Of a stretch of DNA of 29,154 nucleotides, positions 8,147-22,701 are shown piece by piece (within the stretch, counting starts at the first letter, position 1; every line of letters begins with the position of its first letter). Below the pieces are notes generated by a model that was given only the letters and a program-made list of their open reading frames with translations, did no database searches and was not told the origin of the DNA. The DNA comes from a virus. The DNA is taken from IMG/VR virus record IMGVR_UViG_3300042691_024053, positions 1-29,154 of that record; one strand, written 5' to 3'. A program made the translations under genes and the position numbers.

Positions 8147-8907
8147 AAAAATATGGATTTAATTTTTGGGTAGTATTTCTACCTTTTCACGTATGGGGAT
8201 TAATTGCTCTGTGGGAATTACCTAATCACTGGATCAGCTTCTTAGTTATGTGGTTTGTTATTGGAGTTATAGGTAACGGCGTAGCAGCACATAGATACTT
8301 CGCTCACGGACAATTTGAAACTTACAAACCAATTAAATGGGTGTTAGGATTTTTATCTACTCTAGGTGCTATTGGTCCTGTTACGTTCTGGGTCATCCAA
8401 CACAAAGCACATCATCTTAGAGCAGATAGGATCAACGATCCACATAGCCCTGTATACAACAGCTGGTTCTATGTTTTTTATGCTTGGACATTCCCCCAAG
8501 GCAATAACGAACAAGATTATTTAAAAGATCGTTATGCCAAAAGACTGGCAGTACAAATGCTACGTGATCCGTTTTATTTGTTCTTTCATAATAATCATTA
8601 CAAAATAATTTTTACGTTTTGTATAATTCTTGCCTTAATTGATCCAGCATACTTTATGATGTACTGTTTGGCTTACTGTGTAGACTTCTTCAGATTAGGT
8701 GCTGTTAATTATTGGTGTCACAGAGCCGGATATAGAAACTTCGATACAGAAGATGCTACAACTAATAATTTTTGGTTAGGATGGTTGGGTATGGGGTTCG
8801 GATGGCACAATAATCATCATGCCCATCCAGGAAGATTAATCCTTCAACATCGTTGGTGGGAAATCGATATCGAAGGATATATCGGGTGGTTATTAAGTAA
8901 ACGTTAA
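8143..8907 (+). CDS. membrane fatty-acid desaturase, second copy
   Basis: 254 residues. His boxes: H50-RYFA-H55 (AAHRYFAHGQF), HKAHH (87-91) followed by DPHSP, and WHNNHHAHPGR near the C-terminus; membrane spans at about 8-27, 31-49 and two more near 145-180. It is clearly homologous to the preceding enzyme but diverged, so the pair is an old tandem duplication or two regiospecificities. It is translated by ATGA coupling. Its stop overlaps the end of the convergent gene at 8904 by 4 bases. It may act on acyl-ACP, acyl-CoA or lipid chains; which one cannot be read from sequence. Confidence 0.93.
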   Translation: MKKYGFNFWVVFLPFHVWGLIALWELPNHWISFLVMWFVIGVIGNGVAAHRYFAHGQFETYKPIKWVLGFLSTLGAIGPVTFWVIQHKAHHLRADRINDPHSPVYNSWFYVFYAWTFPQGNNEQDYLKDRYAKRLAVQMLRDPFYLFFHNNHYKIIFTFCIILALIDPAYFMMYCLAYCVDFFRLGAVNYWCHRAGYRNFDTEDATTNNFWLGWLGMGFGWHNNHHAHPGRLILQHRWWEIDIEGYIGWLLSKR

Positions 8908-9284
8908 GCAGTTATTTTACTTACAAATGAATCTAACGATACAATATTATCGTTTTTTACTGGCGGTTCTATCGAAGTTTCTGGCCAATAAAGAGTATGT
9001 TGAATTTCTCTAGAATTTAGATTTTCTAATACCCTAGGTTTAATGTCATTATGAACAGTCGACCATTCTTCGAGCCACGTTGCGTAGGCTTCTTCGTTAT
9101 GCCAATATATATGATATTCTACATAAGATCCGTCTTCAGTAGATTTCAAATCCATTTTAGACACATACGGATTAGAATCATATAAAAAACATTGTGTAAG
9201 TTTAAACCACCCAGGTGTGGCCCATAACTCTGCTTCTATTTGTGCTCCTGATTTTTCAAATACTGAAATAGTTTGAAACTCCAT
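8904..9284 (-). CDS. ABM-like dimeric alpha/beta-barrel protein
   Basis: 126 residues with a strong ribosome site (AAGGAG) 8 bases before ATG. The core reads PGWFKLTQ..., then NPYV...EYHIYWHNEEAYATWLEEW, the strand-strand-helix pattern of the antibiotic biosynthesis monooxygenase / EthD-like barrel family (strand, W/xs, eay-xx-W). The same pattern recurs in the N-terminus of the 382-aa protein at 9988 and in proteins at 11751 and 12157. Such barrels are often cofactor-free monooxygenases, cyclases or isomerases in secondary metabolism, but assignment here rests on pattern only. A late-like AATAAATA box lies 22 bases upstream. Confidence 0.6.
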   Translation of the reverse strand: MEFQTISVFEKSGAQIEAELWATPGWFKLTQCFLYDSNPYVSKMDLKSTEDGSYVEYHIYWHNEEAYATWLEEWSTVHNDIKPRVLENLNSREIQHTLYWPETSIEPPVKNDNIVSLDSFVSKITA

Positions 9285-9349: not shown

Positions 9350-10012
9350 ATGAAAAAATTAGTGTTACTCACTGGAGGCAGTAAAGGCATAGGATTAGCA
9401 ATAGCCGATAATCTAAAAGAGAATTATAATGTAGTTACTGTGTCAAGAGGTTCAACTAGCACTGAACAAGGTGATTTACTCGATCCTACTTTTCGAAATT
9501 ATCTAGTAGAAAAATACACTCCGGATATTTTTATCAACAATGCTGCATCCTTGTATAAAGATCCACAAAGGATGTTAGAGATGAATGGACTTGTTCCTGT
9601 CGATCTTCTTTTAAAGTTTTATGAAAAAATGGACAACGGAATTATTATAAACATGGGCAGTCAAAGTTCTGAAAAACAAATAAGGCCTAAAGACGATTTG
9701 GCAACCAATGTGTATTCTTTAGGAAAAAGATTTTTAAAAGATGTATCGCTTAGTTTAAACTATTCTAAAAATAAACCCATTAAAGTAATGTGTCTAAGTC
9801 CTGCTGCTACACATACACCTATTCTCAGTTATATAACAAATTTTGAACCTAAAGCTGAAGACTATACAAACTATGATTGGAATAGTAGTATTGCTTGGAC
9901 TAAGCCAGAAGAAATAGCTGGCATTGTTAGATATCTTATCGAACTTCCAGAATATATTTGTATATCTGAATTAGTAGTAGATAACCATTACTCCAATGCC
10001 GTATATTGGTAA
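9350..10012 (+). CDS. short-chain dehydrogenase/reductase, FabG-like
   Basis: 220 residues. The Rossmann dinucleotide motif TGGSKGIG is at 8-15, NNAA at 63-66, the catalytic Ser region NMGSQSS at about 101-107, and the YxxxK pair Tyr122-Lys126 (VYSLGK). A later SPAATHTP segment matches the SDR PG-like loop. The usual role is NADPH-dependent reduction of a keto group, in fatty-acid synthesis the 3-ketoacyl-ACP. It is about 25 residues shorter than FabG. Start chosen by the AAAGGA ribosome site. Near the desaturases, synthase and dehydratase it could supply the reductive step, although a sugar or other keto substrate is possible. Its 3' end overlaps the convergent gene by 25 bases. Confidence 0.9.
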   Translation: MKKLVLLTGGSKGIGLAIADNLKENYNVVTVSRGSTSTEQGDLLDPTFRNYLVEKYTPDIFINNAASLYKDPQRMLEMNGLVPVDLLLKFYEKMDNGIIINMGSQSSEKQIRPKDDLATNVYSLGKRFLKDVSLSLNYSKNKPIKVMCLSPAATHTPILSYITNFEPKAEDYTNYDWNSSIAWTKPEEIAGIVRYLIELPEYICISELVVDNHYSNAVYW

Positions 10013-11136
10013 TCGAAAAAATATAATTCTGAACCAGCAGTTTCTCGGAAAAAATTAGTTTGACTATGTTCTTTAATTTTTTCTAATGCGTTTTCTTTAA
10101 AAGTGACATTATCGTATACGTAAAATATGTAGATATCATTATCGTACTGTGCGCTATGAGGAGTGAAAGCAGCATTAAACACTAGTATGCTTGTTCTTGC
10201 CTGTATAATAAGTTCTTCGTATTTTTTATTTTTAACGTATTCATTTAACAAATTATGATGACTATAATAATAAGGTAGATTGTCATCGTCTTTTGAAAAT
10301 GGTTCGTAGAATTTGCATCTAATACCTTTATCATTAAAGGTTAATCTAACTGCTATAGTAAAAGTGTATCTAAGCTCATTGCTTACTCTGTGAGCATGAA
10401 CAGGTAATTCATAACCTAATTGCTGGTGTCCAACTAGAACAGCGGCATTATCGCAATCCTTTATATAGTTGTTCGCTATTGCTTCACAGTCATAAGTTAA
10501 TTGTGTTAATTTTCTATATAACCACGGAGCAGTATACATAGATGTTAAAACAGCTTGTTCAAAGGAATAAGCAAGTAATAAAGGAAAGCTCTTTTTAGCT
10601 ACATTACTTATTGGGCGTCTAACAATATCAGAAGTACGCTCTTTAATAAATCTAGCAGCTTTTCCTGGTTTAGCATCAACGAATACATTTTCTCCTTTAT
10701 ATTCTTTCAATGAACCTAAAGGTAAAATATTTTTTACAAAATGATCTTTATGGTATGAAACAAGTGTCCAATCTATTAAATCATTTTTATCAGGGTAATC
10801 TGTGTAAGGAAACGGACTTACATAGTTGTGATCTTTACTAGTTAATCTTTGGTAATCAATATTTTCTTTTATATGAAATTCTTTAAATTTGTTCGTAATT
10901 TCTGTATATCGTTTTCTATTTTCATTAGCCCACTGATTATATGATTCTTCACTCCACCATATCACTCTCCATTCTGAAGTTAAAAAGTCATCAGATACGT
11001 GTTGTTCTATAGAAACTATGTAAGGAGAGTTTAAAAGTAAAGAATATAATTCAAGAAGTTCTTTTGGATATATTACTGTTGGGTTCGGTTCTTTAAAATT
11101 GTTTACATTATAAACTATATAATATTTGTCTATCAT
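9988..11136 (-). CDS. two-domain protein: ABM-like barrel plus cupin-like oxygenase domain
   Basis: 382 residues from ATG 11136 (an upstream in-frame start at 11187 would run into the divergent gene). Residues 1-80 carry the ABM-like pattern SPYIVSIEQHVSDD...EWRVIWWSEESYNQWANENR, closely paralleling the protein at 8904. Residues 150-345 look like a double-stranded beta-helix oxygenase: HAHR at 247-250 in ELPVHAHRVSNELRYTFTIAV and a late His327 in AAFTPHSAQYDNDIYIFYV, similar in layout to the 4840 protein. The iron motif is HxH rather than HxD, so the chemistry is uncertain. A fusion of these two domains is unusual and suggests they act in the same pathway. Confidence 0.6.
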   Translation of the reverse strand: MIDKYYIVYNVNNFKEPNPTVIYPKELLELYSLLLNSPYIVSIEQHVSDDFLTSEWRVIWWSEESYNQWANENRKRYTEITNKFKEFHIKENIDYQRLTSKDHNYVSPFPYTDYPDKNDLIDWTLVSYHKDHFVKNILPLGSLKEYKGENVFVDAKPGKAARFIKERTSDIVRRPISNVAKKSFPLLLAYSFEQAVLTSMYTAPWLYRKLTQLTYDCEAIANNYIKDCDNAAVLVGHQQLGYELPVHAHRVSNELRYTFTIAVRLTFNDKGIRCKFYEPFSKDDDNLPYYYSHHNLLNEYVKNKKYEELIIQARTSILVFNAAFTPHSAQYDNDIYIFYVYDNVTFKENALEKIKEHSQTNFFRETAGSELYFFDYQYTALE

Positions 11137-11159
11137 AATTTTTTTGGATATATAATAAT

Positions 11160-11762
11160 ATGCATTTATCTTATAGACCTTTATCAATAAACGATTGTGA
11201 TCTACTTATAGACCTTTTAAAGAATCGACCATATTTGTTCAATGGTCACCATGATCCATCATGGCACAACAATATGCTAAATTTAGTTCCAAAATGGTTA
11301 AGCGATCCATTATGGTACTTTCCGGCTATTTGGAATAACGACGTCTTGATAGGAGCTATGTTAGCAAAAGAAAGTTCAGGAAATCCAAGCTGGAGTTTTG
11401 GCCACTGGGTATCAAAAGGCAACTTAATAACTACGCTTGCTTCGGAACAAGGTGTTCAAATATTACGTCTTGCCGACAAAGAAATATTCGATGAGATGGA
11501 GATTAAAAGAAAACTTAATAGGATATATGTTTCTTACAGATTTTATGATAATCAAAATCCAAATGTTAAAAACATAGGTATGAGTGATAGACTTTTCACC
11601 TGGATGACTAGAAATAATTATAGAGTGGCTAGGTATAAATTTTTTACAGACTGCATTGTAGATGCTGGTGAATCTCCTAAGTATGCTTATCAAAAAGAAC
11701 TGTTAGGTAATACAGTATGGCCGTTTAAAACTGCTGTAAGAATTGGATTTTTAGTCGAATAG
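11160..11762 (+). CDS. GNAT-like acyltransferase candidate, 200 aa
   Basis: Divergent from the previous gene with only 23 bases between the two ATGs. The N-terminus (SYRPLSINDCDLLIDLL) looks like the opening strand and helix of a GNAT protein, followed by a strand segment AIWNNDVLIGAMLAKESS and a C-terminal RIGFLVE strand. The acetyl-CoA pyrophosphate loop (Q/RxxGxG/A) is not obvious. A related-looking protein (W...YRxxNRYW) lies at 21142 in the lipid operon. If an acyltransferase, it could use acyl-ACP or acyl-CoA. It overlaps the 3' end of the convergent gene by 12 bases. No ribosome site is visible. Confidence 0.45.
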   Translation: MHLSYRPLSINDCDLLIDLLKNRPYLFNGHHDPSWHNNMLNLVPKWLSDPLWYFPAIWNNDVLIGAMLAKESSGNPSWSFGHWVSKGNLITTLASEQGVQILRLADKEIFDEMEIKRKLNRIYVSYRFYDNQNPNVKNIGMSDRLFTWMTRNNYRVARYKFFTDCIVDAGESPKYAYQKELLGNTVWPFKTAVRIGFLVE

Positions 11763-12062
11763 ATCTGAGAAAGGTTTCCAAACTTCTCCTTCGTTCGATG
11801 TCATAACTAGATTGATATCGTGTCTTAGTGCTTCTACTTCAAATCTACTCCAAAACATTTTTCTCATAGGATGTTTTTGTGCTTCGTCGAATTTTTCTTT
11901 ACTTTCCCATTCTGTTTGAATTTCCCAAGATTCGTCATCAAACTGTGTATCAACTGCTCGTATAAATCCAGGCATTTTAACACTATAATTTTTCATTAAT
12001 TGTTCAAAAGGTAATCCTTGTGTGGTCACTATTCTAAATCTTTTCATTTTAGGTTCGGACAT
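11751..12062 (-). CDS. ABM-like barrel protein, about 103 aa
   Basis: The core MKRFRIVTTQGLPFEQL, then KMPGFIRAVDTQFDD and EIQTEWESKEKFDEAQKHP, is a good match to the antibiotic biosynthesis monooxygenase-like barrel pattern (MPGF, EW-S-EKF). The start is unsure: ATG 12062 is shown, but ATG 12092, TTG 12104 or ATG 12047 are in frame and none has a clear ribosome site. It is divergent from the next gene, which has the same fold, so the pair may be a heterodimer or tandem duplicates that inverted. Function unknown. Confidence 0.6.
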   Translation of the reverse strand: MSEPKMKRFRIVTTQGLPFEQLMKNYSVKMPGFIRAVDTQFDDESWEIQTEWESKEKFDEAQKHPMRKMFWSRFEVEALRHDINLVMTSNEGEVWKPFSDLFD

Positions 12063-12131
12063 GCATTTAAGTTGATAATATCTTATGTACATAATAACTT
12101 TCAAAAAAATATTTAACCTTATTTTTCTAAC

Positions 12132-12139
12132 TATAAATA
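12132..12139 (+). promoter_or_regulatory. T4-type late promoter box TATAAATA
   Basis: A perfect TATAAATA 17 bases before ATG 12157, with the ribosome site AAGGAG between them. Confidence 0.7.
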
Positions 12140-12156
12140 TTTTTAAGGAGAGTACT

Positions 12157-12480
12157 ATGTACGCTAGAATAGCAAAGATTACTACAGAAAATTCAGATGA
12201 TTGGGAATTAATTCCTAATTTTGTTCATGAACTTCGAACTAACAGTATGTATAGATTTATAATCGAAGATTTGATGGCTAGACCAGGATTTATAAAAAAA
12301 GAACATACTCTATGCGAAGACAATACAGGGCAAACATTTTTTAGTACTATAAATTTTGACACTAAAGAAAATTTTGATTCTTACATTAATGAAGAAGCAA
12401 ATCAAAGTATATGGATATATTTAGAACTTACCGCACAACAAAAAGGTCTTATTATAACTATAGAAGACAAAGAAGTTTAA
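12157..12480 (+). CDS. ABM-like barrel protein, 107 aa
   Basis: ATG 12157 is preceded by AAGGAGAG and the late promoter box. Begins MYARIAKITTENSDDWELIP, then MARPGFIKKEHTL..., STINFDTKENFDSYIN: strand, helix, PGF loop, strand, helix as in antibiotic biosynthesis monooxygenase-like barrels. It is the fourth such domain in 4 kb. The C-terminal strand GLIITIEDKE closes the barrel. Its 3' end overlaps the convergent oxygenase gene by 4 bases. The specific reaction is unknown. Confidence 0.6.
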   Translation: MYARIAKITTENSDDWELIPNFVHELRTNSMYRFIIEDLMARPGFIKKEHTLCEDNTGQTFFSTINFDTKENFDSYINEEANQSIWIYLELTAQQKGLIITIEDKEV

Positions 12481-13019
12481 TCGTCTAATAATAATCCAGC
12501 GTCTGGAGTGGTCGATATCGTTAAGGTTACTCTAGGAACTCTGGTCTCATCCATTACAATATCATGTCCTTCTGATATTCTTACAATAGCAGGAAAATCA
12601 AAAGGCATTCTATCTACTTCGTAATAATCTGTATTAGATGTTAGATAAAAAGGAGCTCCAGTAGGTAACACTAACCGCCGTGCTTTTACATTAGCATAAA
12701 ATGTTGTAAAACTACCTTCAAAATTTAAAATAGGAATATTTACTCTACCTATACTATCTGTATAGTCTTTATGAGGAGCAGAGTCTTTATTCCTATATGT
12801 TACATAGATACTGGCATCGTCTGGAAATAAATCTAATTTTCGAAAAGATTCTGCTATTTCGGGAATACGATCTAAGAATCCAAACTTTTTTAAATTAATA
12901 AAAGGACCTCTAAACTTAGTCTTTTCAAGGAGACTAGTTTCTTTATAAAGAAAATCTAAAGTTTTCGTTCTTATTGTTTCTAAATTTTTTAAATCAATTC
13001 TTTTCCAAAAATATCCCAT
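12477..13019 (-). CDS. small 2OG-Fe(II)-type oxygenase
   Basis: 180 residues. A jelly-roll oxygenase core is visible: SIYVTYRNKD then APHKDYTDSIGRVNIPI with His83-x-Asp85, NFEGSFTTFY, the distal His152 in SEGHDIVMDETRVPRVTLTIS and Arg163 at the 2OG position. The complete HxD...H...R set predicts an active hydroxylase. It is the last gene of a three-gene minus-strand operon of oxygenase-like proteins and overlaps the end of the preceding one by 26 bases. Target unknown; small phage enzymes of this type may hydroxylate peptides, lipids or nucleobases. Confidence 0.7.
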   Translation of the reverse strand: MGYFWKRIDLKNLETIRTKTLDFLYKETSLLEKTKFRGPFINLKKFGFLDRIPEIAESFRKLDLFPDDASIYVTYRNKDSAPHKDYTDSIGRVNIPILNFEGSFTTFYANVKARRLVLPTGAPFYLTSNTDYYEVDRMPFDFPAIVRISEGHDIVMDETRVPRVTLTISTTPDAGLLLDD

Positions 13020-13938
13020 ATTTTCCTATGCTTTTTTCTAATAAATTATCTAACTTTTTATCGTCCCATATAGCGTTTACTACTATTTGATAACTAAGTT
13101 TATTATAGAAATCCATTCCATATATGTGTGTACCATTACTCCAACAAAAACTATTCGTGGTGTCTGGAAGGTCGATATAGTTAGTCTGACCAGTTTCAAT
13201 ATGACTTACATAATATGTAGGTTTATCATTTTCATCATAAAGAGCTATTCTAAATTCAGTAGGACATTGCCATGCCCAAGTTTGTTCTCTGTGAGGAAGT
13301 ACATCATTTTTAGGTTCTAGAATCATTATATTATTAAGAACTCGAATAGGAAAATGATCCATTATTTGAACTATAATATTTGAAAAAAACTTGTCTTTAT
13401 ATAATTTTTTTGTAAATGTTCCCTGAGCAGTTCTTCCTTGCCTGAAACCATTTTCATTAGAATATTGAGGAGTTTTAAGAGTTCCATTTACGTATAAATC
13501 GTGTATGTTAAAGTCAAGAGTAGCATTACAAGTGATATGAAGTCCATAAAATTCTACACGATTCCAACTGCTGTTTTCTCCTAGTGGGTGTTCTTCTGAC
13601 GACCATGGTTCATCTTCACTGGGCAGTAATCTTTTAATTTCTATTTTTTCTCTATTCCATATTTCTTTAAATTTATCAATGTCATCTATTTTAAATTTAG
13701 GAATGTCTAGAGCAGACCAAGACAGATCTTTATATTTTTTTCCTAATGTTTCAAATCTCTCTTTATATTTTTCAGAAATAGGATCAGAAGGATGCCAGGA
13801 AGCACCAGTCCACTGATCACTAGATTGAAAACTTGGTCCTAATTTAGTCTTGCTAGGATTCATAAATTTATGATCATATTGATTAATCTTCGAAACTTCC
13901 CTAGCTTTTAATATCAATTGACTTTTATTTTCTATCAT
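12994..13938 (-). CDS. aspartyl-hydroxylase-like oxygenase paralogue with altered metal site
   Basis: 314 residues. It shares long stretches with the preceding gene product, for example CPTEFR, DEN-x3-PT, NYID, DTNSFCWSNG and GxDF. At the sites where the paralogue has His167-Arg-Asp169 and His224, this protein has His216-Arg-Glu218 and Tyr273 (HIYGMDF), so the standard iron ligands are partly replaced. The His two residues earlier (271) could compensate. It may be an inactive partner or a modified enzyme. ATGA overlap with the upstream gene gives coupled, near-equal translation, as for subunits of one complex. Confidence 0.6.
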   Translation of the reverse strand: MIENKSQLILKAREVSKINQYDHKFMNPSKTKLGPSFQSSDQWTGASWHPSDPISEKYKERFETLGKKYKDLSWSALDIPKFKIDDIDKFKEIWNREKIEIKRLLPSEDEPWSSEEHPLGENSSWNRVEFYGLHITCNATLDFNIHDLYVNGTLKTPQYSNENGFRQGRTAQGTFTKKLYKDKFFSNIIVQIMDHFPIRVLNNIMILEPKNDVLPHREQTWAWQCPTEFRIALYDENDKPTYYVSHIETGQTNYIDLPDTTNSFCWSNGTHIYGMDFYNKLSYQIVVNAIWDDKKLDNLLEKSIGKYGIFLEKN

Positions 13939-14741
13939 AAATCTAATTTGTAATTTAGTACGTTCTTGTACTTGTTGATACTTCTTGAAAAAAGCTCATC
14001 TGCTTTTTTGGTATGCGGAATGCCTGTGATACATAAAATCCACTTTTTACATCCGTTAAAATCTGAACCGTGTATTTGAGATCCATTACTCCAACAAAAA
14101 CTATTAGTGTCATCTGGACAATCTATATAATTCACGTCTCTATGTTCTGTGTCTACTACATAAAGAGTTGGTCCAGGATTCTCATCATGAAGCATCACTC
14201 TAAATTCAGTCGGACAATTAAAGTACATACCTCTATCTCTGTGAGGTTTAATTTCTCGTGTACTTTGCCATATAAAAGTCGATAGCATGGTATGAATTGG
14301 AAAAAATTCTCGAACTTGTTCTAAAATTCTTTTCAATTGTTTATTATTTCCGGTATACAGTTTTCCGATAAACGAGTCTTGACTAATAGGGGATAGCTGT
14401 TTATTCTCATATAAATGTAGTCCTCTAAAAGAAGGAACATGATAACTACTACTTTTCCTCAAAGGATGTTGATCTTTGAGCCATGGTTCAGCAGCGTCTG
14501 GACGCACTCGTAGTACGTCTATGCTTTCTTCTTCCCAAATACTTTTAAATTCATCTATGTCTTCAAATTCAATTTTAGGAATATCCAATGGCAACCATCT
14601 TATGGGTCTGTACTTATCTCCCAACAGTTTCATTTTATCTATATACTCTTCAGATAAACTCCAATCAGTGTAATGATCTTTTTTAGAATTCTGTTCCTTT
14701 ATAACAGTATCTATCACTCTGTCTATTAATATACGATCCAC
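13935..14741 (-). CDS. aspartyl/asparaginyl-hydroxylase-like oxygenase
   Basis: 268 residues from a GTG start with an AGGAAA ribosome site. The C-terminal half carries KPHRDRGMYFNCPTEFRVML with His167-x-Asp169 and SNGSQIHGSDF with His224, the ligand layout of cupin-type 2OG-Fe(II) hydroxylases of the aspartyl beta-hydroxylase group. The N-terminal 150 residues (WLPLDIPKIEFEDIDEFK...) are shared with the paralogue downstream. It opens a three-gene operon running to 12477. The Arg that usually binds 2-oxoglutarate is not clear (KK at 232-233). Substrate unknown. Confidence 0.65.
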   Translation of the reverse strand: MDRILIDRVIDTVIKEQNSKKDHYTDWSLSEEYIDKMKLLGDKYRPIRWLPLDIPKIEFEDIDEFKSIWEEESIDVLRVRPDAAEPWLKDQHPLRKSSSYHVPSFRGLHLYENKQLSPISQDSFIGKLYTGNNKQLKRILEQVREFFPIHTMLSTFIWQSTREIKPHRDRGMYFNCPTEFRVMLHDENPGPTLYVVDTEHRDVNYIDCPDDTNSFCWSNGSQIHGSDFNGCKKWILCITGIPHTKKADELFSRSINKYKNVLNYKLDL

Positions 14742-14795: not shown

Positions 14796-16256
14796 ATGTC
14801 AACAGAGTTACTATTATTAACCAATGTGTCTAGCCCAATTTGGCAACGATCTATTGGCGCCTATCAGGTGGCTAGTCATGTGAGAAAGTTTGGAATACAA
14901 AGTCAAGTTATTGATTTTATTGATTTGTTTAAAATTGATGAACTAGAAGAAATTATAACATCTTTAATCAGTAACGAAACACTATCTATTGGAATAAGCA
15001 CTACTTTCTTTAGTAATCGAGAAACTAAAGGAAAATTTATCAGCAGTAAAAGAAATTCAAATTTAATAATTTCCGAAAATTTAAGACAATTATTGTTAAA
15101 AATTAAAAAGAAATTTCCTAAGATAAAAATTATGGGCGGGGGAGCAAACAGTTATCTATTAGAAAATGATGATTTATTCGATGTTGTGTTCCATGGTTAC
15201 AGCGAACAAAGTGTAGTAGAATGGTTATTAGAGTTAAAAGACAAAGTTCCAAAAAGAATTTATCTACAGAAAAATAAACAAATCATAATCGATGGAAAAC
15301 TTGGAAAATTTGATATTAACAAATTGGATCATCGTTGGGATAAAAAAGACTTTGTACTCGAAGGCGAAACTCTGCCAATAGAAATAAGTCGAGGATGTAT
15401 ATTTAAATGTAATTTTTGTTCATATCCCCTTAATGGAAAAAAGAAATTCGATTATCTTAGAGATCCTGAACTGATCAAAGATGAACTAATCTATAACTAC
15501 GAAAATTTCGGAACTACTAATTATTTTTTTACAGATGATACGTTTAATGATTCTACACTAAAATTAGAGCTATTACATAAAGCAATTACTAGTCTTCCTT
15601 TTAAAATTAAATTTGTTACCTATTTAAGACTAGATTTATTAAATGCTCACAAGGAGCAGATACCTCTGCTGAAAGAAATGGGGCTAGGATCTTCGTTCTT
15701 CGGAATAGAAACTTTAAATCACGAAAGCGGAAAATGTATTGGTAAAGGCATGAATCCTGAAACTGCCAAATCTTTTTTACTGGATTTATATTATAATCAT
15801 TGGAACGAAGAAATACCATTTACTTGTAGTTTTATAATTGGACTACCAGGAGAAAATTTAGAATCAATAAATCAAACTTATTCGTGGTTAACTAATACGC
15901 CGTTTAATGGACTATGGTATCCTTTATATATTAAAACAAACGGACACTATAAAAGTGATTTTGATTTAAACTATTCGAACTATGGTTATAAATTAGATTC
16001 AAATAACGAATGGTACACAGACATTATGAATTATAAAGACGCTCTTTCTTTAGCTGAAGAATTTAATAGTGTTGGATTATATAATGAGAATACACCAAGT
16101 AGTTGGTTTTTATTTGGATTGTTAAGTTATGGATTTAACATCGACGAAATAAAGAATGTTAAAACAAAAGATTTTCATTGGCCTAGTATCTTATTAAAAA
16201 GATATAAGTTATTCAGACAGTATAAAGATCTTGTAATTAAAGAGATTCAAAGATAG
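14796..16256 (+). CDS. radical SAM enzyme with N-terminal Rossmann (B12-binding-like) domain
   Basis: 486 residues. Residues 1-150 form a Rossmann-like domain resembling cobalamin-binding domains (SPIWQRSIGAYQVASHVRK, KIKIMGGGAN), but the DxHxxG cobalamin motif is not seen, so B12 may not be bound. The radical SAM cluster motif C201-x3-C205-x2-C208 (SRGCIFKCNFCSYP) is intact, followed by YFFTDDTFN and GIETLNHES segments typical of the barrel and a family-like FIIGLPGE. It would generate a 5'-deoxyadenosyl radical for methylation, cyclisation or C-H chemistry on an unknown substrate. Within this island it is a good tailoring enzyme candidate. It overlaps the convergent synthase gene by 20 bases. 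Confidence 0.88.
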   Translation: MSTELLLLTNVSSPIWQRSIGAYQVASHVRKFGIQSQVIDFIDLFKIDELEEIITSLISNETLSIGISTTFFSNRETKGKFISSKRNSNLIISENLRQLLLKIKKKFPKIKIMGGGANSYLLENDDLFDVVFHGYSEQSVVEWLLELKDKVPKRIYLQKNKQIIIDGKLGKFDINKLDHRWDKKDFVLEGETLPIEISRGCIFKCNFCSYPLNGKKKFDYLRDPELIKDELIYNYENFGTTNYFFTDDTFNDSTLKLELLHKAITSLPFKIKFVTYLRLDLLNAHKEQIPLLKEMGLGSSFFGIETLNHESGKCIGKGMNPETAKSFLLDLYYNHWNEEIPFTCSFIIGLPGENLESINQTYSWLTNTPFNGLWYPLYIKTNGHYKSDFDLNYSNYGYKLDSNNEWYTDIMNYKDALSLAEEFNSVGLYNENTPSSWFLFGLLSYGFNIDEIKNVKTKDFHWPSILLKRYKLFRQYKDLVIKEIQR

Positions 16257-17415
16257 AAATATTAGTTCTGCCGCCGAAACCAAAACTAGCTTTCATAAAA
16301 ATTTTACTGTTTAGATTAGTTTGTCTTGTAATAATTCTAGGATCATCTGATAAAGGTTCTGTCAAATTATAATTACCTTGAACAAATCCATTTTTAACAG
16401 CTTCTAATCCATAAGCACTTTCGATTAAACCACAGGCACTCATAGTATGGCCTATGTATCCTTTGAATGCCACAATGGGTATATCTACATCAGTAAATGC
16501 TTTTTGGAAAACATCTATTTCTATATCGTCACCAATTAGTGTACTAGTAGCATGAGCATTAAAAAATGAAATATCATTCCTAGTAAGTTGCGATTGAGCT
16601 AATGCTTGATTAATAATTTTAAGTTGATTCTCACAAGTCTTATCATGAGCTGTTATGCTGGTTACTTTAGCACCGCTAGAGATGGCTCTTATTCTAGCCT
16701 TAGGTGTTAAATTATTTTTAATTAGTGTCTCTTCGTCACAAATAAACCAAATTGTTCCGCCTTCTCCCTGTAAAAAGCCATCTCTCTTTTTATCAAAAGG
16801 AGCACATGACCCACCGTTTAAAGTAGAGATAGCACTTGTACATTGCCAATGGTATTGCATCTTGGCCTCAATAGGCATATCGGCATTGCCAACAATAGCA
16901 GCAGACGTCTGACCTGTTTGGATTAACATTACAGCAAAATGAAGGTTGAACATACTACTAGTACAAGCACCGTTAAGACTAGTATTAATTCCTTCTAATT
17001 TTAATTTTCCAGCTACTAATGAACTTAATAGATCGTGATTACCTTGAAAGAGTCTGGTAGGACTGTATCTTGTTACACCTGAGTTGTAAGCAGCAACGAA
17101 TTCATCTCTAACTTTAGATGCTGAAGTAAATGATCCAAAAATCACTGCCGAGTCTTTTGGAATGATTTCACCTATTGGGTATTTGTCAATTAAATCGTTA
17201 CATAAATCTACTGTAAGTTTGTAAGTGGTGTAATCCTTTTCTACATAAGACATATGAAACCCTTTTTTACAAAGAACATTAGGCGCTTCATCTATATTGT
17301 ATCTGAGAGGCTCGGTAGCTCCCGGTGTATTCGGCATCGTTAAAAAATTGTCTTGAACATTTACTCCAATACAATCCTTGACTAGATAATCTACAACATA
17401 TACCGGTTTCATCAT
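16237..17415 (-). CDS. beta-ketoacyl-ACP synthase (KAS I/II, FabF-like)
   Basis: 392 residues with the thiolase-fold active site intact: Cys151 in NGACTSS, His288 in FNAHATST, Lys318 and His323 in FKGYIGHTMSACG, and the C-terminal SFGFGGRT loop. This is the decarboxylating Cys-His-His set that joins an acyl chain to malonyl-ACP. Length is near the 410 of FabF; the N-terminus departs from the usual opening. Only one KAS subunit is present and no chain-length factor. The start is ATGA-coupled to the ACP gene, so this synthase probably works with that ACP. Third gene of fabZ-ACP-KAS. Confidence 0.92.
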   Translation of the reverse strand: MMKPVYVVDYLVKDCIGVNVQDNFLTMPNTPGATEPLRYNIDEAPNVLCKKGFHMSYVEKDYTTYKLTVDLCNDLIDKYPIGEIIPKDSAVIFGSFTSASKVRDEFVAAYNSGVTRYSPTRLFQGNHDLLSSLVAGKLKLEGINTSLNGACTSSMFNLHFAVMLIQTGQTSAAIVGNADMPIEAKMQYHWQCTSAISTLNGGSCAPFDKKRDGFLQGEGGTIWFICDEETLIKNNLTPKARIRAISSGAKVTSITAHDKTCENQLKIINQALAQSQLTRNDISFFNAHATSTLIGDDIEIDVFQKAFTDVDIPIVAFKGYIGHTMSACGLIESAYGLEAVKNGFVQGNYNLTEPLSDDPRIITRQTNLNSKIFMKASFGFGGRTNISIFESL

Positions 17416-17768
17416 TTTTGTTTAATTCTTGTAGGATCTTGACTGTCAGTAATATAGCCTATTAAATCCTTCCAAACAAGAAGTTTAGCGACTTCATGAT
17501 CATCTATAGTAGAACCGAATTCTTCTTCGACTTGTATAACAAGTTCCAAAATGTCAATGCTATCAATTTCTAAATTTTTCTTCTTGAGTTCAGCAAGCTC
17601 TTCGGGTAATCCTTCGATTTCTTTATTATCTAATAAACGTAGATCCTTAATATTCATATCAGCTGGTAGTGGATATGTTAACTCTAATTTTAAATATTCA
17701 TTTATCATTTCGATAAATCGTTTTTCAATTTGTTCTTTAGTTAAAGGTGTCCAATTTTCGGCACTCAT
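17412..17768 (-). CDS. acyl carrier protein, extended form (118 aa)
   Basis: The carrier motif is LEIDSIDILELVIQVEEEFG with phosphopantetheine Ser70. The spacing up to this motif is long: usual ACPs have Ser near residue 36, while here about 30 extra residues (charged, DNKEIEGLPEELAELKKK) separate helix 1 from the motif. It has a strong AAGGAG ribosome site. It sits between fabZ and the synthase and should hold the growing acyl chain in the cytoplasm. The insertion may mark partner specificity, for example exclusive use by phage enzymes. Confidence 0.9.
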   Translation of the reverse strand: MSAENWTPLTKEQIEKRFIEMINEYLKLELTYPLPADMNIKDLRLLDNKEIEGLPEELAELKKKNLEIDSIDILELVIQVEEEFGSTIDDHEVAKLLVWKDLIGYITDSQDPTRIKQK

Positions 17769-17794
17769 TCAATTCTCCTTTGCGTTATTTACAG

Positions 17795-18250
17795 TTAAAC
17801 TCCTGCTATTGCTTTTAATTTGGCTTCAGCAACAATAATTTTGTCCACTTCAATTCGAGTATCGAACTCAAATAAATTTCTAGCATTTCTAATCAGTGTA
17901 GTATAGATATACAATTGATCGCCAGGGTAGACAACTTTCTTAAATTTTACTTGATCCGCTCCTGAAAATAAAATACCATGACCTTTAAAATATTTCATAA
18001 TAGTTTCGGCATTATTCTCTACATACTTAAATGCTAAGATTGTACTAGCTTGAGCCATGGACTCGATCATCATAACTCCTGGCATGATATGATTTCCTGG
18101 AAAATGTCCTTGTATGTAGGGCTCATTTATAGAAACATTTTTAATAGCAGTTAAACTGTGAGTATCGTAATCTAATACCCTGTCTATCATAATAAATGGA
18201 TACCGATGGGGTATCATAGACAAGATTTCTTGTATGTTAATAGAATTCAT
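17795..18250 (-). CDS. fabZ: (3R)-hydroxyacyl-ACP dehydratase
   Basis: 151 residues, the usual FabZ length. Landmarks: IPHRYPFIMIDRV (13-25), QGHFPGNHIMPGVMMIESMAQA with catalytic His49 and Glu63. It removes water from 3-hydroxyacyl-ACP to give trans-2-enoyl-ACP in type II fatty-acid synthesis. No Shine-Dalgarno is seen before the ATG; instead a full sigma70 promoter places the transcript start on the A of the ATG. Next to ACP and KAS genes in the same direction, it forms the elongation core of the island. Confidence 0.95.
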   Translation of the reverse strand: MNSINIQEILSMIPHRYPFIMIDRVLDYDTHSLTAIKNVSINEPYIQGHFPGNHIMPGVMMIESMAQASTILAFKYVENNAETIMKYFKGHGILFSGADQVKFKKVVYPGDQLYIYTTLIRNARNLFEFDTRIEVDKIIVAEAKLKAIAGV

Positions 18251-18256
18251 TACAAA

Positions 18257-18285
18257 ATTATAAATTAGAAAACTTCTGAAGTCAA
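18257..18285 (-). promoter_or_regulatory. sigma70-type promoter for fabZ-ACP-KAS, leaderless
   Basis: Minus strand: TTGACT (18285-18280), 17 bases, TATAAT (18262-18257), then 6 bases to ATG 18250, the same -10-to-ATG spacing as at 5515/5522. It lies within the 3' end of the upstream gene. Confidence 0.8.
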
Positions 18286-19167
18286 TGCGTTTGATGAGTT
18301 ACCAGAACTAAGTTTAGCCACTACATCATGATATTGATGATCGCTAGTTCCTTTCCACTTATCTTTCCAACTTATCACTGTCTGAATATCAGGATGATTA
18401 AAGATAGGACTTCTTTCTGCTATTTCATATCCGCATTGTTTTACACGTTGTTCTAAATTATAATTAGAAAATCTGTTAAACACATATACCTTGGTACTAT
18501 TAGTTCCTAACTTTCCCGGAAAACCATGATTAGCTAATTTTTCCATGGTAGGATCAATTAAAAAACTCAACATAGATTCAGGAGTATAACTGAGTAAAAA
18601 AGGTGTACCTAGTATATTATGTTCCTTCCAAAAATTAAATTGACTATGTATAATTTCCTCTTCATCTAAGTACCATAAATTGTTTTTTTGATTTAATTTC
18701 ATATGAGGAGGATCGTTACCTGTTAGCACTGTTCCATCTAACTGTTTAGCTAACCACATATTAGCAGGTATTTGCCAAGCAGCGCATTTCATCGAATTCG
18801 CTATTTCTAATAGTTGTCCGGATTTGACGAACCAATCATAATCAAGATCTACTACTGTGGGTTTAATATTCTTTGCCTCGCAGAATCTAAAAGCATACTT
18901 TGTTTCATGATAGTTATATTGAGTACTCATTATAATAACTTCTACAGGAATACCTAGATCTAATAAAGTGGCTAAAACAAACTCACTGTCTAATCCTCCA
19001 CTGTAACATAATTGTAAAGGAGAAGTTCTTTGTTCGTAAATTAGCCCACAAATAATCTTTACTTCCTCCCAATAACTTAGTACTGGTCTAGATGGTGGGT
19101 CTATTTCCACACACCAAGTAGACCCATTACCTTTACTACGCATATAATTGTTATATAGCAAATCCAT
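18265..19167 (-). CDS. PP-loop ATPase, asparagine-synthetase/amidotransferase-like
   Basis: 300 residues. A PP-loop YSGGLDSEF at 55-63 sits after an N-terminal 50-residue segment, followed by alternating strands and helices (VEVIIMSTQYNYHETKYAFRF, VVDLDYDW, LTGNDPPHMK), as in the synthetase domain of asparagine synthetase B and related amidating enzymes. There is no glutaminase domain, so ammonia or an amine would come from elsewhere. It adenylates a carboxylate in ATP-dependent amide or C-N bond formation. It overlaps the Rieske gene by 17 bases and precedes fabZ, so it may act on the acyl product or its headgroup. An alternative start is ATG 19143. Confidence 0.75.
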   Translation of the reverse strand: MDLLYNNYMRSKGNGSTWCVEIDPPSRPVLSYWEEVKIICGLIYEQRTSPLQLCYSGGLDSEFVLATLLDLGIPVEVIIMSTQYNYHETKYAFRFCEAKNIKPTVVDLDYDWFVKSGQLLEIANSMKCAAWQIPANMWLAKQLDGTVLTGNDPPHMKLNQKNNLWYLDEEEIIHSQFNFWKEHNILGTPFLLSYTPESMLSFLIDPTMEKLANHGFPGKLGTNSTKVYVFNRFSNYNLEQRVKQCGYEIAERSPIFNHPDIQTVISWKDKWKGTSDHQYHDVVAKLSSGNSSNALTSEVF

Positions 19168-19972
19168 TTTTATGTAACCATTTTCTATAATGTATTTTAG
19201 ATTCTTCTAGATTTGCAGTAGGGAATCTTACCATTTGTTCTGCTTGTGCCTTGTCTTGTGAAAAAGCATTTTCCCACATTTGAGAATTAACTCTGTAATT
19301 TTCATCAGAATCAGTTATGTCTTTATACTTCCAAACGGCCATTTGTGTATCTGTAAAACTGCGTGTAACAAACAAGGCATGGTCCTGCCATTCTATCATA
19401 GTGTATGGATAGATAGCGATCCAGCGAGCAATAACGTTCCCTTGTTCATCACTTACAGTCTGCATACTGCCCCAGTCAGCATAATCCCAATTTACATTTG
19501 CTTTACCTTCGATTCCTAACAAGTCATAAACTCCATTGTGTACTACAGGTATGTGATCAACATCTAGGAATATATCCATACTAAGTTTTGGATCAGCATT
19601 GACAAAATCTATTCTAAACTCGTCAAGACGAAGATTTTCAAAACTTAATTCTTTTAACATAGATAAATCGAGTTGATCTTGAAAAATTAAACCATTGTAT
19701 TCATAAACAGATTTGGTGTGTAATTTTTGCTTGTTGCACATAGTACTGGCGCCAGAATCTTTGGGCAAGCCATCCATGTGCCATGACCATCCATGGTATT
19801 GACATCTTAATTCTGTTTGAGTTCCTGATATAATTCTACTATTTTGATGCGGGCAAATGTTGCTACCTAAACGGTAGTTTCCGTTTTCATTTATGAGAAT
19901 TTTTTTATTTTCGAGAACTTCGATAGATTTAGCCTGACCAGGTTGTAAGTCTGTTTTGTGTCCTAAAAACAT
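19151..19972 (-). CDS. Rieske non-heme iron oxygenase
   Basis: 273 residues. The Rieske [2Fe-2S] site is C40-P-H42 and C57-Q-Y-H60 (NICPHQNS ... RCQYHGWSW). The mononuclear iron site is suggested by DVDHIPVVHNG with His140 and His145. These are the parts of ring-hydroxylating and related oxygenases that use O2 and electrons from a reductase; no ferredoxin or reductase gene is in the window. It is shorter than most alpha subunits (350-450), with a reduced C-terminal domain. Strong GGAGGA ribosome site. First gene of the minus-strand operon that continues to the synthase, transcribed divergently from the desaturase at 20031. Confidence 0.9.
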   Translation of the reverse strand: MFLGHKTDLQPGQAKSIEVLENKKILINENGNYRLGSNICPHQNSRIISGTQTELRCQYHGWSWHMDGLPKDSGASTMCNKQKLHTKSVYEYNGLIFQDQLDLSMLKELSFENLRLDEFRIDFVNADPKLSMDIFLDVDHIPVVHNGVYDLLGIEGKANVNWDYADWGSMQTVSDEQGNVIARWIAIYPYTMIEWQDHALFVTRSFTDTQMAVWKYKDITDSDENYRVNSQMWENAFSQDKAQAEQMVRFPTANLEESKIHYRKWLHKNGFAI

Positions 19973-20030
19973 AAGATTCCTCCGGAAGTATTTACCTTAG
20001 CCTTGAATCTTGAGATAATTACATATAGAT

Positions 20031-20789
20031 ATGAAATTTAATTTACATTACAAAATATTCTATTTGATAGTGATAAGCAGTATTCCTTTAAGTATATGGA
20101 TAACTGTGTCCGAATCATTGTGGCTATGGCTATTATTCACATTATTATGGTCTAAAATTGTTCATTTTTTATTTTTACAAATTGGATTACATAGATACTT
20201 TTCACATAACAGTTTTACTACAGGAAGAAAAAGACACGTATTCTTAGCCTTAGGTACGATCCTAACAGGACAAGGAAGCCCGATCACATGGAGTATTAAT
20301 CATCTTTATCATCACAAACACAGCGATACTGACGAAGACATACATAGTCCTCAACATGGCTGGTTACACACTGTCCTTCTGTGGCCTTTAAAAGAAAAAA
20401 ATATCGGAATTAGTCCTAAACATTTGGTTAGAGATAAACTCATTCTCTGGATACATAAGAATTATTTTTTAATTTGGATCATGCTATCTACCCTAGCTTA
20501 TGTAATTGATTGGAAACTATTAGTATACGGATTACTGGCACCAGCAGGATGGAGTTTGCTACAAAGTAATGTGATAGGAAATTTATTTAATCATTTAAAA
20601 ATTCCAGGATCTTATCAAAACTTTGACACTAAAGATCAAAGTTGGAATAATAAGTGGGTACAATTTTTTCAAGTAGGTGAAGGATTACATAATAATCATC
20701 ATTATAACATGAAAATCTATAACCAGGCCATGATGAATGGCGAATACGATCCAGCAGCAGTAATTATAGAAAGGTACTTTATAAAATGA
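20031..20789 (+). CDS. membrane fatty-acid desaturase, third copy
   Basis: 252 residues. His boxes H54-RYFS-H59 (IGLHRYFSHNSF), HLYHHKHSD (about 90-98) followed by DIHSP, and GLHNNHHYN near the end. Hydrophobic spans at about 8-25, 29-50 and 140-175. It opens the plus-strand operon desaturase-AcpS-GNAT-like-desaturase, and only 58 bases separate it from the divergent Rieske gene. No ribosome site is seen before the ATG; a weak -10 (TATAGAT) overlaps the start. The stop overlaps the AcpS start (ATGA), which hints that the substrate is an acyl-ACP. Confidence 0.93.
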   Translation: MKFNLHYKIFYLIVISSIPLSIWITVSESLWLWLLFTLLWSKIVHFLFLQIGLHRYFSHNSFTTGRKRHVFLALGTILTGQGSPITWSINHLYHHKHSDTDEDIHSPQHGWLHTVLLWPLKEKNIGISPKHLVRDKLILWIHKNYFLIWIMLSTLAYVIDWKLLVYGLLAPAGWSLLQSNVIGNLFNHLKIPGSYQNFDTKDQSWNNKWVQFFQVGEGLHNNHHYNMKIYNQAMMNGEYDPAAVIIERYFIK

Positions 20790-21145
20790 TAGTAGGACAT
20801 GGAGTAGACATAGTCGATTTAAAAAGATTTCGAATTATGAATAAAGAACGTTTAATGAAGATAGCTAAACGTATTTGTACTGATTTTGAATTAAATGAAT
20901 TTAATAATCATAAATTAAAAAATGAGTACCTAGCTAAGATATGGGCAGGAAAAGAATCTATAGCTAAGGCTTTTGGTACTGGCATTCGAGGAGCTGTAAC
21001 TTGGAAGCAGATACAAATACAGTCTAACGAGCTGGGTCGTCCTTTTGTTCAGTTTAAGGAAAGATTGTCTGGACCAATATGTCATCTTAGTTTTAGTCAT
21101 GAACGAGATTATCTGATCGCTAGTGCCATTCTAGAAATTATATGA
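20786..21145 (+). CDS. acpS: holo-ACP synthase (4'-phosphopantetheinyl transferase)
   Basis: 119 residues, the AcpS size. Motifs: GHGVDIVDLKRF with the metal-binding Asp8, WAGKESIAKAFGTGI with Glu57 and Lys61, and C-terminal HLSFSHERDYLIASAI. It transfers the phosphopantetheine arm from CoA to a serine of ACP. Its operon partners and the two ACP genes nearby suggest it activates the phage ACPs; host AcpS might do so too, and carrying its own suggests the host enzyme is insufficient or unsuited. Translation is coupled at both ends by ATGA overlaps. Confidence 0.96.
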   Translation: MIVGHGVDIVDLKRFRIMNKERLMKIAKRICTDFELNEFNNHKLKNEYLAKIWAGKESIAKAFGTGIRGAVTWKQIQIQSNELGRPFVQFKERLSGPICHLSFSHERDYLIASAILEII

Positions 21146-21684
21146 TACACGCAAAAACATGGATTCCTGGTACAAATCAAGAATTAGATAACTTATTCGA
21201 AAATCTAAGACAAAACATTTATGACAGTCAACAGTACACACTTTGGTCAAACTATCATGTTGATCATTTTAAAAAGTGCTCGGCTCTGACTATTTCATTT
21301 GAAGATAATATTCCTTTATTTTGTGCTTCTATTTTAGAAAGAGATATATGGCCCAAAGGAGTTTACAGAATAATGAATAGATATTGGAGGATTGGGGGAG
21401 ATCACGCCGTTCTTAAAACTCTAAGTACAGGCACAGGAATCTTAGTACAAAGTCAACTAGAGTGGGTACGATCTCAAAAAAACTTTCAACTAGCATTTAT
21501 TAGTAGACAGTATGATCATTGGCAGAATTTTTCGATACGAGAATTCAGCAAAAACTTCAAAATTAATTTTCAAAGTGATAATTACTATTATTGCACATGC
21601 GAAACCTTAAATGACGATTCTTGTTGGCAAAAGATTATCTATGATGGAAATAGCAGCATTTTAGAATTTTGGAAGCGTCGATGA
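21142..21684 (+). CDS. GNAT-like protein of unknown activity
   Basis: 180 residues. It shows ALTISFEDNIPLFCASI, then GVYRIMNRYWRIGG, QSQLEWVRSQ and FQLAFISRQYDHW, a pattern of strands resembling GNAT-fold proteins, especially the R-x-x-NRYW segment. I see no clear acetyl-CoA loop. It sits between AcpS and a desaturase with overlapping start and stop codons at both ends, which argues for a role in the same acyl pathway, perhaps moving an acyl chain from ACP to an acceptor. That role is inference. Confidence 0.5.
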   Translation: MIHAKTWIPGTNQELDNLFENLRQNIYDSQQYTLWSNYHVDHFKKCSALTISFEDNIPLFCASILERDIWPKGVYRIMNRYWRIGGDHAVLKTLSTGTGILVQSQLEWVRSQKNFQLAFISRQYDHWQNFSIREFSKNFKINFQSDNYYYCTCETLNDDSCWQKIIYDGNSSILEFWKRR

Positions 21685-22442
21685 AAAACAAAAGCCTGTT
21701 CACTTTAATAATACCAATACACATATTATCTTTAAGCACTATATGGTTGTCAGAATTTTCCTGGGTAAACTTACTTTATTTGTTCTTAGGATATGTGGTT
21801 ATCAGTGGGCTAGGTGTTGGAGTAGGCCTACATAGATGGGCTAGTCATAGATCAGTTAAATTGAACACCATAGCTAAACCTGTAGTTATCTATGCCAGTA
21901 TAATGTCTTGTCAAGGACATCCTTATTGGTGGGCTGCTGTTCATCAAAGTCTACACCACAGATATACAGATACAGAAAAAGATATTCATAGTCCTGTAAA
22001 CGGTAAGTGGAACAGTTTTATAGGATGGTTATTTAATCACGATACTGGCACATTAAATTATAGACACGTACTGCATTTAACTTCTGAGCCTTTGTTGAAT
22101 TTCAGTCAAAAATATTATCTTCATATCATTTGGGGAAGTTGGTTACTATTTGGATTAGTAAATTTAGATGTTCTACTATGGGCTATAATAATACCAACCG
22201 CTATAGCATTACATCTAGAAGGATTAATTAATACATTCTGTCACGGGAATTACGGTTACAGAAATTTTGAAACCAACGACCAGTCTTGTAATGTTCCGAT
22301 TCTAGGTTGGCTGGTTTGGGGTAATGGGTGGCATAACAATCATCATGCCAGACCTGGACATTTCGATTTTGGTAAAACTGTTAGTGGCAAAAACGAGTTT
22401 GATCCAACAACACTGTTTCTACCTTTGATCAAGCAGTATTAA
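21681..22442 (+). CDS. membrane fatty-acid desaturase, fourth copy
   Basis: 253 residues from ATG 21681 (ATGA overlap; a TTG at 21669 is in frame but unneeded). His boxes H51-RWAS-H56 (GLHRWASHRS), HQSLHH followed by DTEKDIHSP, and WHNNHHARPGH. Hydrophobic segments at about 7-23, 29-50, 150-185. Sequence between boxes differs from the other three copies, so the four probably form or act on different bonds. It ends 14 bases inside the convergent ACP gene. Confidence 0.93.
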   Translation: MKNKSLFTLIIPIHILSLSTIWLSEFSWVNLLYLFLGYVVISGLGVGVGLHRWASHRSVKLNTIAKPVVIYASIMSCQGHPYWWAAVHQSLHHRYTDTEKDIHSPVNGKWNSFIGWLFNHDTGTLNYRHVLHLTSEPLLNFSQKYYLHIIWGSWLLFGLVNLDVLLWAIIIPTAIALHLEGLINTFCHGNYGYRNFETNDQSCNVPILGWLVWGNGWHNNHHARPGHFDFGKTVSGKNEFDPTTLFLPLIKQY

Positions 22443-22674
22443 TTTTTTGGTAAATCAAAAAATATAAATCAAACAGTTTTGTAAAACTTTTTGGATCAAT
22501 CGTATCTAAATCAATTTCGATTTGAAATTCATCTTCACAGGCTACAATGATTTCAGTTAAAGATAGACTATCTAGTTTTAAGTCGTCCTTAATGTAAGAC
22601 TGTAAAGTTATCTCTTTGTCTTTTCTTACATATTTTTTGGTGATCTCTATCACTTGTGTTTCTATATTATTCAT
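22429..22674 (-). CDS. acyl carrier protein, second copy (81 aa)
   Basis: Standard ACP length. The motif DDLKLDSLSLTEIIVACEDEFQIEID carries the phosphopantetheine Ser36, and helices before and after fit the four-helix fold. ATG 22674 is chosen over a start at 22695 because a late promoter box sits between. The box ends 7 bases before the ATG, so the leader is only about 2 bases. It faces the desaturase operon, overlapping its end by 14 bases. Having two ACPs suggests one for elongation and one for desaturation or transfer. Confidence 0.93.
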   Translation of the reverse strand: MNNIETQVIEITKKYVRKDKEITLQSYIKDDLKLDSLSLTEIIVACEDEFQIEIDLDTIDPKSFTKLFDLYFLIYQKINTA

Positions 22675-22681
22675 AGTACAA

Positions 22682-22689
22682 TATTTATA
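22682..22689 (-). promoter_or_regulatory. T4-type late promoter box TATAAATA
   Basis: A perfect TATAAATA on the minus strand, 7 bases before the second ACP start, implying an almost leaderless late transcript. Confidence 0.7.
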
Positions 22690-22693
22690 AACC

Positions 22694-22701
22694 AATAAAT
22701 A
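22694..22701 (+). promoter_or_regulatory. late-like promoter box AATAAATA
   Basis: Plus-strand AATAAATA 14 bases before ATG 22716; back to back with the minus-strand late box at 22682. Confidence 0.4.

Follow-up and report, generated by a model that had tools for sequence, protein, structure and literature searches.

A putative phage-dedicated type II acyl-ACP pathway with an exchangeable GNAT-desaturase-ACP unit in aquatic jumbo phages

Genes for making or altering acyl chains are already on record from phages, as lone acyl carrier proteins (ACPs), as desaturases, as fabF with a desaturase in pelagimyophages, and as phage-borne biosynthetic clusters. Here we describe a block of acyl-pathway genes in a 29,154-nucleotide stretch of viral DNA (the whole of positions 1 to 29,154 of IMG/VR record IMGVR_UViG_3300042691_024053; hereafter the window), itself a fragment of a larger phage genome, in which two ACPs occur with a holo-ACP synthase (AcpS), a ketoacyl-ACP synthase (KAS), a FabZ dehydratase, membrane desaturases and a GNAT-fold protein. 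Single phage ACP genes are known from PHROG 5934/4154, Alteromonas phage R22Y (PMC11705849) and Erythrobacter phage R6L (PMC5463345), and unlike the ACPs of the block, these are reported without an AcpS, KAS or FabZ of their own. Freshwater pelagimyophages carry fabF and a stearoyl-CoA desaturase according to a passage of PMC7029224 and so resemble the block in joining a KAS and a desaturase in an aquatic phage, but that passage reports them as lipid genes and names no set of ACP, AcpS, FabZ and GNAT. Elsewhere, fab genes are treated only as pooled viromic auxiliary metabolic genes (PMC10653327, PMC11360552), cyanophage lipid desaturases are credited to Roitman 2018 in a passage of PMC11480375, and phage-borne biosynthetic gene clusters are cited to Dragos 2021 in a passage of PMC10452541. 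Most reports of ACPs or desaturases in phages concern solitary auxiliary genes, their role unclear. The cyanophage desaturases, membrane enzymes carried by the phage as here, are reportedly single and not part of a carrier-protein pathway. The phage-borne clusters are said to be of the prophage bacteriocin type; they share with the block the idea of a phage-carried specialised-metabolite cluster, which here would be of the type II acyl-ACP kind and lie in jumbo phages.

Among bacterial systems, type II fatty-acid synthase (FAS; FabF, FabZ, ACP, AcpS) has the same enzyme families and catalytic residues as the block, but the phage side has no recognised FabD or AMP ligase, and its KAS, at about 26-33% identity to bacterial FabF, forms a phage-specific clade and scores far under the FabF cut-off. 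Terminal-alkyne cassettes of the jamABC type pair a membrane desaturase with a dedicated ACP, as the block does, but the block has no AMP ligase. Some GNAT-like enzymes (LuxI, FeeM) take acyl-ACP; the fold of these N-acyltransferases is like that of the phage protein, whereas their sequence families were not matched by it. In the literature searched, with subscription journals and preprints lying largely outside it, no phage was found to own a set of ACP, AcpS, KAS and FabZ together with a swapped tailoring unit. On balance, we think it probable that the block encodes a phage-dedicated, modular type II acyl-ACP pathway of aquatic jumbo phages that makes a specialised acylated product.

A sequence-only reading of the window had observed acyl-pathway genes here, and this observation is confirmed. 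On the minus strand lie KAS (16237-17415; Pfam E 2e-18), ACP1 (17412-17768; Pfam E 1.4e-4; N-terminal extension of ~45 residues, DSI attachment site), FabZ (17795-18250; PF07977 E 5e-27), a PP-loop ATP-pyrophosphatase-like protein with the motif SGGLDS (18265-19167; weak QueC match, E 0.006), and a Rieske non-haem iron oxygenase (19151-19972; PF00355 E 2e-12, with Ring_hydroxyl_A weak in one relative). The plus strand holds membrane desaturase 3 (20031-20789; PF00487 E 1e-15), AcpS (20786-21145; Pfam E 6e-19), GNAT-fold acyltransferase 1 (GNAT 1; 21142-21684, 180 residues) and membrane desaturase 4 (21669-22442, probable start ATG 21681; PF00487 E 5e-14). The gene for ACP2 (22429-22695, minus strand; PF00550 E 4e-6; canonical DSL site) faces desaturase 4, and GNAT 1, desaturase 4 and ACP2 make up the swapped unit. 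The divergent arms, stop/start coupling and facing ACP gene described by the earlier reading are all seen: ATGA overlaps join KAS to ACP1 (17412), desaturase 3 to AcpS (20786), AcpS to GNAT 1 (21142) and, if that ATG is the start, GNAT 1 to desaturase 4 (21681), and a 58-bp gap (19973-20030) separates the Rieske gene from desaturase 3. Promoter and terminator scans gave signals not above those of shuffles.

Pfam/NCBIfam searches and alignments verified the families and intact catalytic residues claimed for KAS, both ACPs, FabZ and AcpS, while the Rieske protein, the PP-loop protein, the desaturases and a FabG-like short-chain dehydrogenase/reductase (SDR) lie where they had been placed, in agreement with the coordinates of the open reading frame (ORF) list. 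Among aligned relatives, KAS C151/H288/K318/H323, ACP1 S70, ACP2 S43, AcpS D8/E57, FabZ H49/E63 and the desaturase His boxes are invariant, and the Rieske protein has its ligands (CPH-14-CQYH) and a D..H....H site. With its Cys-His-His triad, conserved Lys and Pfam ketoacyl-synt domains, the KAS belongs with the elongating KAS I/II superfamily, though not with the FabF equivalog TIGR03150 (148.3 bits, cut-off 493.75). FabZ, with its catalytic His/Glu, scores above the cut-off of NF000582 (156.4 bits, cut-off 113), AcpS, with its Mg-binding Asp/Glu, above that of TIGR00516 (85.3 bits, cut-off 59.8), and the two ACPs, each with the attachment Ser, reach 22.5 and 27.5 bits against 20.8 for PF00550. 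The GNAT-like character attributed to 21142-21684 was upheld by structure prediction, AlphaFold2 (pLDDT 90.9) and Foldseek (prob 1.00, E 3e-6) giving a GNAT fold, and the same fold is predicted for a second protein, GNAT 2 (gn11160; 11160-11762, plus strand; pLDDT 80; Foldseek prob 1.00, E 7e-8; six homologs). GNAT 1 had no match in Pfam and NCBIfam, the LuxI/FeeM families included, and PDB sequence searches with the PP-loop and GNAT proteins returned nothing useful.

A search of related phage contigs for the same gene set and order, proposed with the earlier reading, found KAS-ACP1-FabZ in eight others (L002, L003, L004, L005, L009, L038, L040 and L130; L039 is another view of the L009 contig, and L134 a second contig that matches L130 in gene positions and identities). 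The neighbours that recur are 2-oxoglutarate (2OG)-oxygenase-like genes, two ABM-like (dimeric alpha/beta barrel) genes and GNAT 2; the divergent arm has AcpS and GNAT 1, and the PP-loop gene is usually, and the Rieske gene often, present as well. Because the same neighbours recur across contigs, the conserved block can be taken to span ~8.9-22.7 kb of the window (left limit about 8.9-9.9 kb), which is bigger than first stated; its left extension comprises h8904, h9988, gn11160, the two ABM-like proteins and three putative 2OG-oxygenase-like proteins. Queries with KAS, ACP1, FabZ, AcpS and the PP-loop protein had no convincing relative among 50,697 phage records, so the claim that the set is undescribed in phages holds for sequenced phages, apparent contamination aside. 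Matches of KAS, FabZ and AcpS to phage references (~22-44% identity), labelled as Listeria, Staphylococcus, Enterococcus or Acinetobacter phage, were judged to be host contamination; such records, e.g., Listeria phage LM 4-11-1/4-14-1 and Staphylococcus phage SA 1306 Kay, hold housekeeping fab and acpS genes.

In a tree that included 40 FabF sequences from bacteria, the nine block KAS form one clade (support 100/100, stem 3.88 changes per column), the placement of one long branch (L042) being unsure and the bootstrap not fully settled. When bacterial genome contigs were searched, a narrow KAS alignment retrieved nothing and a broader one only generic FabF at about 25-33% identity. The ratios of nonsynonymous to synonymous change (dN/dS), where dS was computable, were 0.044/0.053 for KAS, 0.026 for ACP1 and 0.023/0.070 for FabZ; several dS exceed 1 and the values are rough, but they indicate strong purifying selection on all three genes. 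Since this selection is strong and the same gene order is found in other phage contigs, the block goes beyond chance, and the sequences point to an acyl kit long maintained in aquatic giant phages. Two contigs from aquatic phages (L042 4794-15753 and L041 6886-11523) hold a distant KAS (26-30%), several desaturases and 2OG-like proteins, with no recognised ACP.

The GNAT 1-desaturase-ACP2 unit appears to be exchanged within this block. Between L002 and L003, KAS, ACP1 and FabZ are 94%, 98% and 96% identical, against 52%, 51% and 51% for GNAT 1, desaturase and ACP2; between the window and a long relative, G010 (364,554 b), identity is 72-97% for the nearest matched flank genes, against 43% for GNAT, 35-37% for the desaturase and 40-49% for ACP2. 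Pairwise identities of these three proteins intercorrelate at 0.58-0.70, and those of the desaturase and ACP2 correlate at -0.23 to 0.16 with those of KAS, ACP1, FabZ and AcpS, the pairs being non-independent and the correlations descriptive. Relatives of GNAT 1 occupy 41 viral loci (33 after dereplication), and 28 of the 33 have a same-strand desaturase no more than 1 kb downstream, as compared with 0.034 desaturases per kb elsewhere in the loci; ACP2 lies nearby in 10, AcpS in 12 and KAS in 8. The unit, with or without ACP2, is widespread without KAS, which the earlier reading had missed. Three contigs (L129, L151 and L143) keep GNAT-desaturase-ACP2-AcpS and have no KAS, which makes chain building look dispensable and puts tailoring and transfer on ACP2 at the apparent core. 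A GNAT search of 399 genomes, all from a single bacterial phylum, was run without a positive control and was empty.

From what is known of these families, AcpS would place phosphopantetheine on ACP1 and ACP2. Starting from an acyl primer supplied by the host, KAS would elongate the chain on ACP1 with malonyl units that host FabD has loaded, the SDR or host FabG would reduce the keto group, and FabZ would dehydrate the product. The chain would then be handed to ACP2, where the partner desaturase would add double bonds and oxygenases would decorate it, and a GNAT-fold enzyme would move it from ACP2 onto an amine, releasing an N-acylated product whose acceptor the PP-loop and Rieske proteins may prepare. 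We infer desaturation on phage ACP2 and release by GNAT because ACP2 travels with the desaturase and GNAT, not with KAS, and because some GNAT-like enzymes use acyl-ACP. As it is exchanged between phages, the unit would determine chain type or acceptor, and the swapping of kit parts among close relatives points to a small molecule or lipid that is made to measure. Rather than bulk host fatty acid, the pathway most likely yields a specialised acylated metabolite or else a surface/lipid modification, for use in infection. More tentatively, the block may represent an ancient phage-specific acyl-ACP line that diversifies its product by swapping the GNAT-desaturase-ACP unit, as in the chemotype switching of bacterial clusters, a proposal that we hold to be plausible rather than probable. 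The carriers stand here beside their activating enzyme and the condensing, dehydrating and candidate release enzymes in one maintained phage lineage, so whether phages make small molecules or lipids of their own inside infected cells becomes testable; the swapped unit is the likeliest determinant of the chemistry.

Several points weigh against this pathway. It rests on sequence, and both the acyl donor and the acceptor proposed for the GNAT-fold enzymes are putative; the top Foldseek matches of GNAT 1 and GNAT 2 are acetyl-CoA enzymes, and for desaturases of the PF00487-type family, lipids or acyl-CoA are possible substrates. GNAT identities correlate at 0.19-0.54 with those of KAS, ACP1, FabZ and AcpS (KAS 0.54, FabZ 0.48), so the exchange signal comes mainly from the desaturase and ACP2. 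Most GNAT-desaturase loci are without ACP2, and an ACP-bound substrate is therefore not general. Family assignment is weak for the PP-loop, the ABM-like and the 2OG-like proteins.

The line had also been called complete and phage-dedicated, able to build, load and desaturate a chain. That it is phage-borne and dedicated, with its own AcpS and two ACPs of its own, stands; completeness does not, since searches of eight related phage records, contigs of 355-525 kb among them, turned up neither a malonyl/acyl transferase (PF00698) nor an AMP ligase (PF00501), and the SDR is retained only in L005 among block-bearing relatives. A complete autonomous type II FAS was rejected for lack of a malonyl-CoA:ACP transferase (PF00698) in these records, the window being a fragment. 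Host FabD, FabG and FabI and host primers would have to be assumed, FabD and the primers because both families are absent from the eight records.

Other known systems were considered and rejected. An aryl-polyene cluster would call for an ApeH-like AMP ligase (PF00501), which the eight records do not have, and FabZ outscores ApeP-like. A radical SAM gene (14796-16256, plus strand; PF04055 E 9e-17; PhpK/TIGR04072-like; nearest to PhpK P-methyltransferases, TIGR04479 85.9 bits, under cut-off), which we regard as accessory, adjoins KAS only in the window and L005 and reaches 80.1 bits for TIGR04072 (cut-off 360), which set aside a ladderane cluster. Scores for a cispentacin (Amc) cluster all fell under their cut-offs (AmcE 73.3/140, AmcF 121.9/325, AmcB 18.6/80 bits), and for anti-phage defence, PADLOC gave no system, the radical SAM protein alone matching the candidate model PDC-M51A.

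Host membrane remodelling is the alternative that survives best, although we consider it unlikely: phage enzymes would shift the host fatty-acid pool to longer, more unsaturated chains in phospholipid or lipid A, e.g., for fluidity or a superinfection block, with the putative 2OG oxygenases acting like LpxO-type lipid hydroxylases. The presence of four desaturases, KAS and FabZ and the HxD...H...R pattern in h12477 speak for it, such action has been proposed for phage desaturases and phage ACPs (PMC7678222; PMC11705849), and freshwater pelagimyophages are reported in a passage of PMC7029224 to have fabF and stearoyl-CoA desaturase. However, feeding the host FAS would need no private AcpS and two private ACPs, a glycerolipid acyltransferase was not recognised in the block, and quick exchange of the GNAT-desaturase-ACP2 unit would be odd for a general fluidity role.

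It is improbable, in our view, that the GNAT-fold enzymes instead attach the acyl chain to a phage or host macromolecule (surface glycan, virion protein or nucleic acid), with the variable unit tracking a receptor/surface arms race. The fast exchange of the unit would fit, as would the FkbM-type methyltransferase-like and glycosyltransferase-like genes (read by eye) that come after the block in L002 and L003, but the window and L130 do not have those neighbours, and their block joins core genes directly. Still harder to credit is a pile-up of independent auxiliary genes in a hypervariable region with no common pathway; the region is indeed mosaic, and PP-loop, Rieske and desaturase genes also occur without KAS, but in nine contigs, KAS, ACP1 and FabZ stay in that order with the AcpS arm diverging from them, and the coupled ORFs, correlated identities and low dN/dS argue for a common pathway.

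The gene order of the entire window matches a 25-kb stretch of G010, with a tRNA cluster at left and ClpP/ligase at right (identities: PE5959 97%, ClpP 93%, ligase 89%, KAS 53%). A phrog_2 terminase, not on the shorter contigs, was found on this 364 kb relative and is 56% identical to terminases of PA5oct-group jumbo phages, and the ClpP-like head protease of the window is 73% identical to that of Agrobacterium phage Atu_ph07 (490 kb). In the 96 kb L009 contig, the block is again flanked by phage genes on both sides. The sequence-only reading had named a break across 7400 or 22700 as what would undo it; continuity holds at both, the window being colinear with terminase-bearing G010 and having core genes on both flanks, so the block is no stretch of host DNA. 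A chimeric assembly joining a host segment to phage contigs, a caveat of that same reading to which the bacterial kind of the genes lends itself, has a negligible chance of being correct, being already contradicted by the colinearity and the tree: independent contigs, among them two of 364 kb and 96 kb where phage genes flank the block left and right, have the same arrangement, and the KAS form a phage clade with no close bacterial KAS found.

Left of the radical SAM gene, two flank-type membrane desaturases (7388-8146, PF00487 E 4e-17, and 8143-8907, PF00487 E 4e-13; both plus strand) are 94% and 91% identical in G010. Next come h8904 (8904-9284, minus; no Pfam match; relatives in L004, L005 and L009 at 24-31%), a small protein placed among the ABM-like ones, and the FabG-like SDR (9350-10012, plus; motifs TGGSKGIG and YSLGK; PF00106 E 9e-10; 65% in L005), an accessory gene and possible ketoreductase with homologs also in L129 and L151. 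The conserved block protein h9988 (9988-11187, minus) has, tentatively, a possible ABM-like N-terminal and an HxH...H oxygenase-like C-terminal region. Beyond gn11160, the first tentative ABM-like protein (11751-12104, minus) is 52-75% identical in relatives, with PF03992 weak in 5 of 18 alignment members (best E 6e-4), and the second (12085-12480, plus), also tentative, is conserved from ~12157. Three 2OG-oxygenase-like genes on the minus strand complete the extension: h12477 (12477-13019), a putative 2OG/Fe oxygenase of the Asp/Asn-hydroxylase kind with an invariant HxD...H...R and no Pfam match; a paralogue (12994-13938) with its second His replaced (THIYG); and h13935 (13935-14741; HRD...H). 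As the paralogue and its L004 and L009 orthologues have Tyr at the second metal His position, they may be inactive or changed. In L129, one 630-aa ORF (1209-3101) fuses h13935-like and h9988-like proteins, which suggests that the two work together; a PF04116 fatty-acid hydroxylase lies near it (4562-5002).

PP-loop and Rieske genes are recurrent same-strand neighbours (9 of 11 Rieske occurrences). A separate type of PP-loop/Rieske cassette is seen in L124 (2217-7995; the contig is also L011), where tandem PP-loop paralogues and a Rieske gene stand just before GNAT 1 and a desaturase, with no KAS. At the left side of the window are thirteen tRNA genes (126-3382), the colinear 51-kb stretch of G010 having 24, and beside them lies a coupled set (3339-5490) encoding a TauD-like dioxygenase (E 1e-23), an unassigned 226-aa protein and a further PP-loop protein, the second that is QueC-like.

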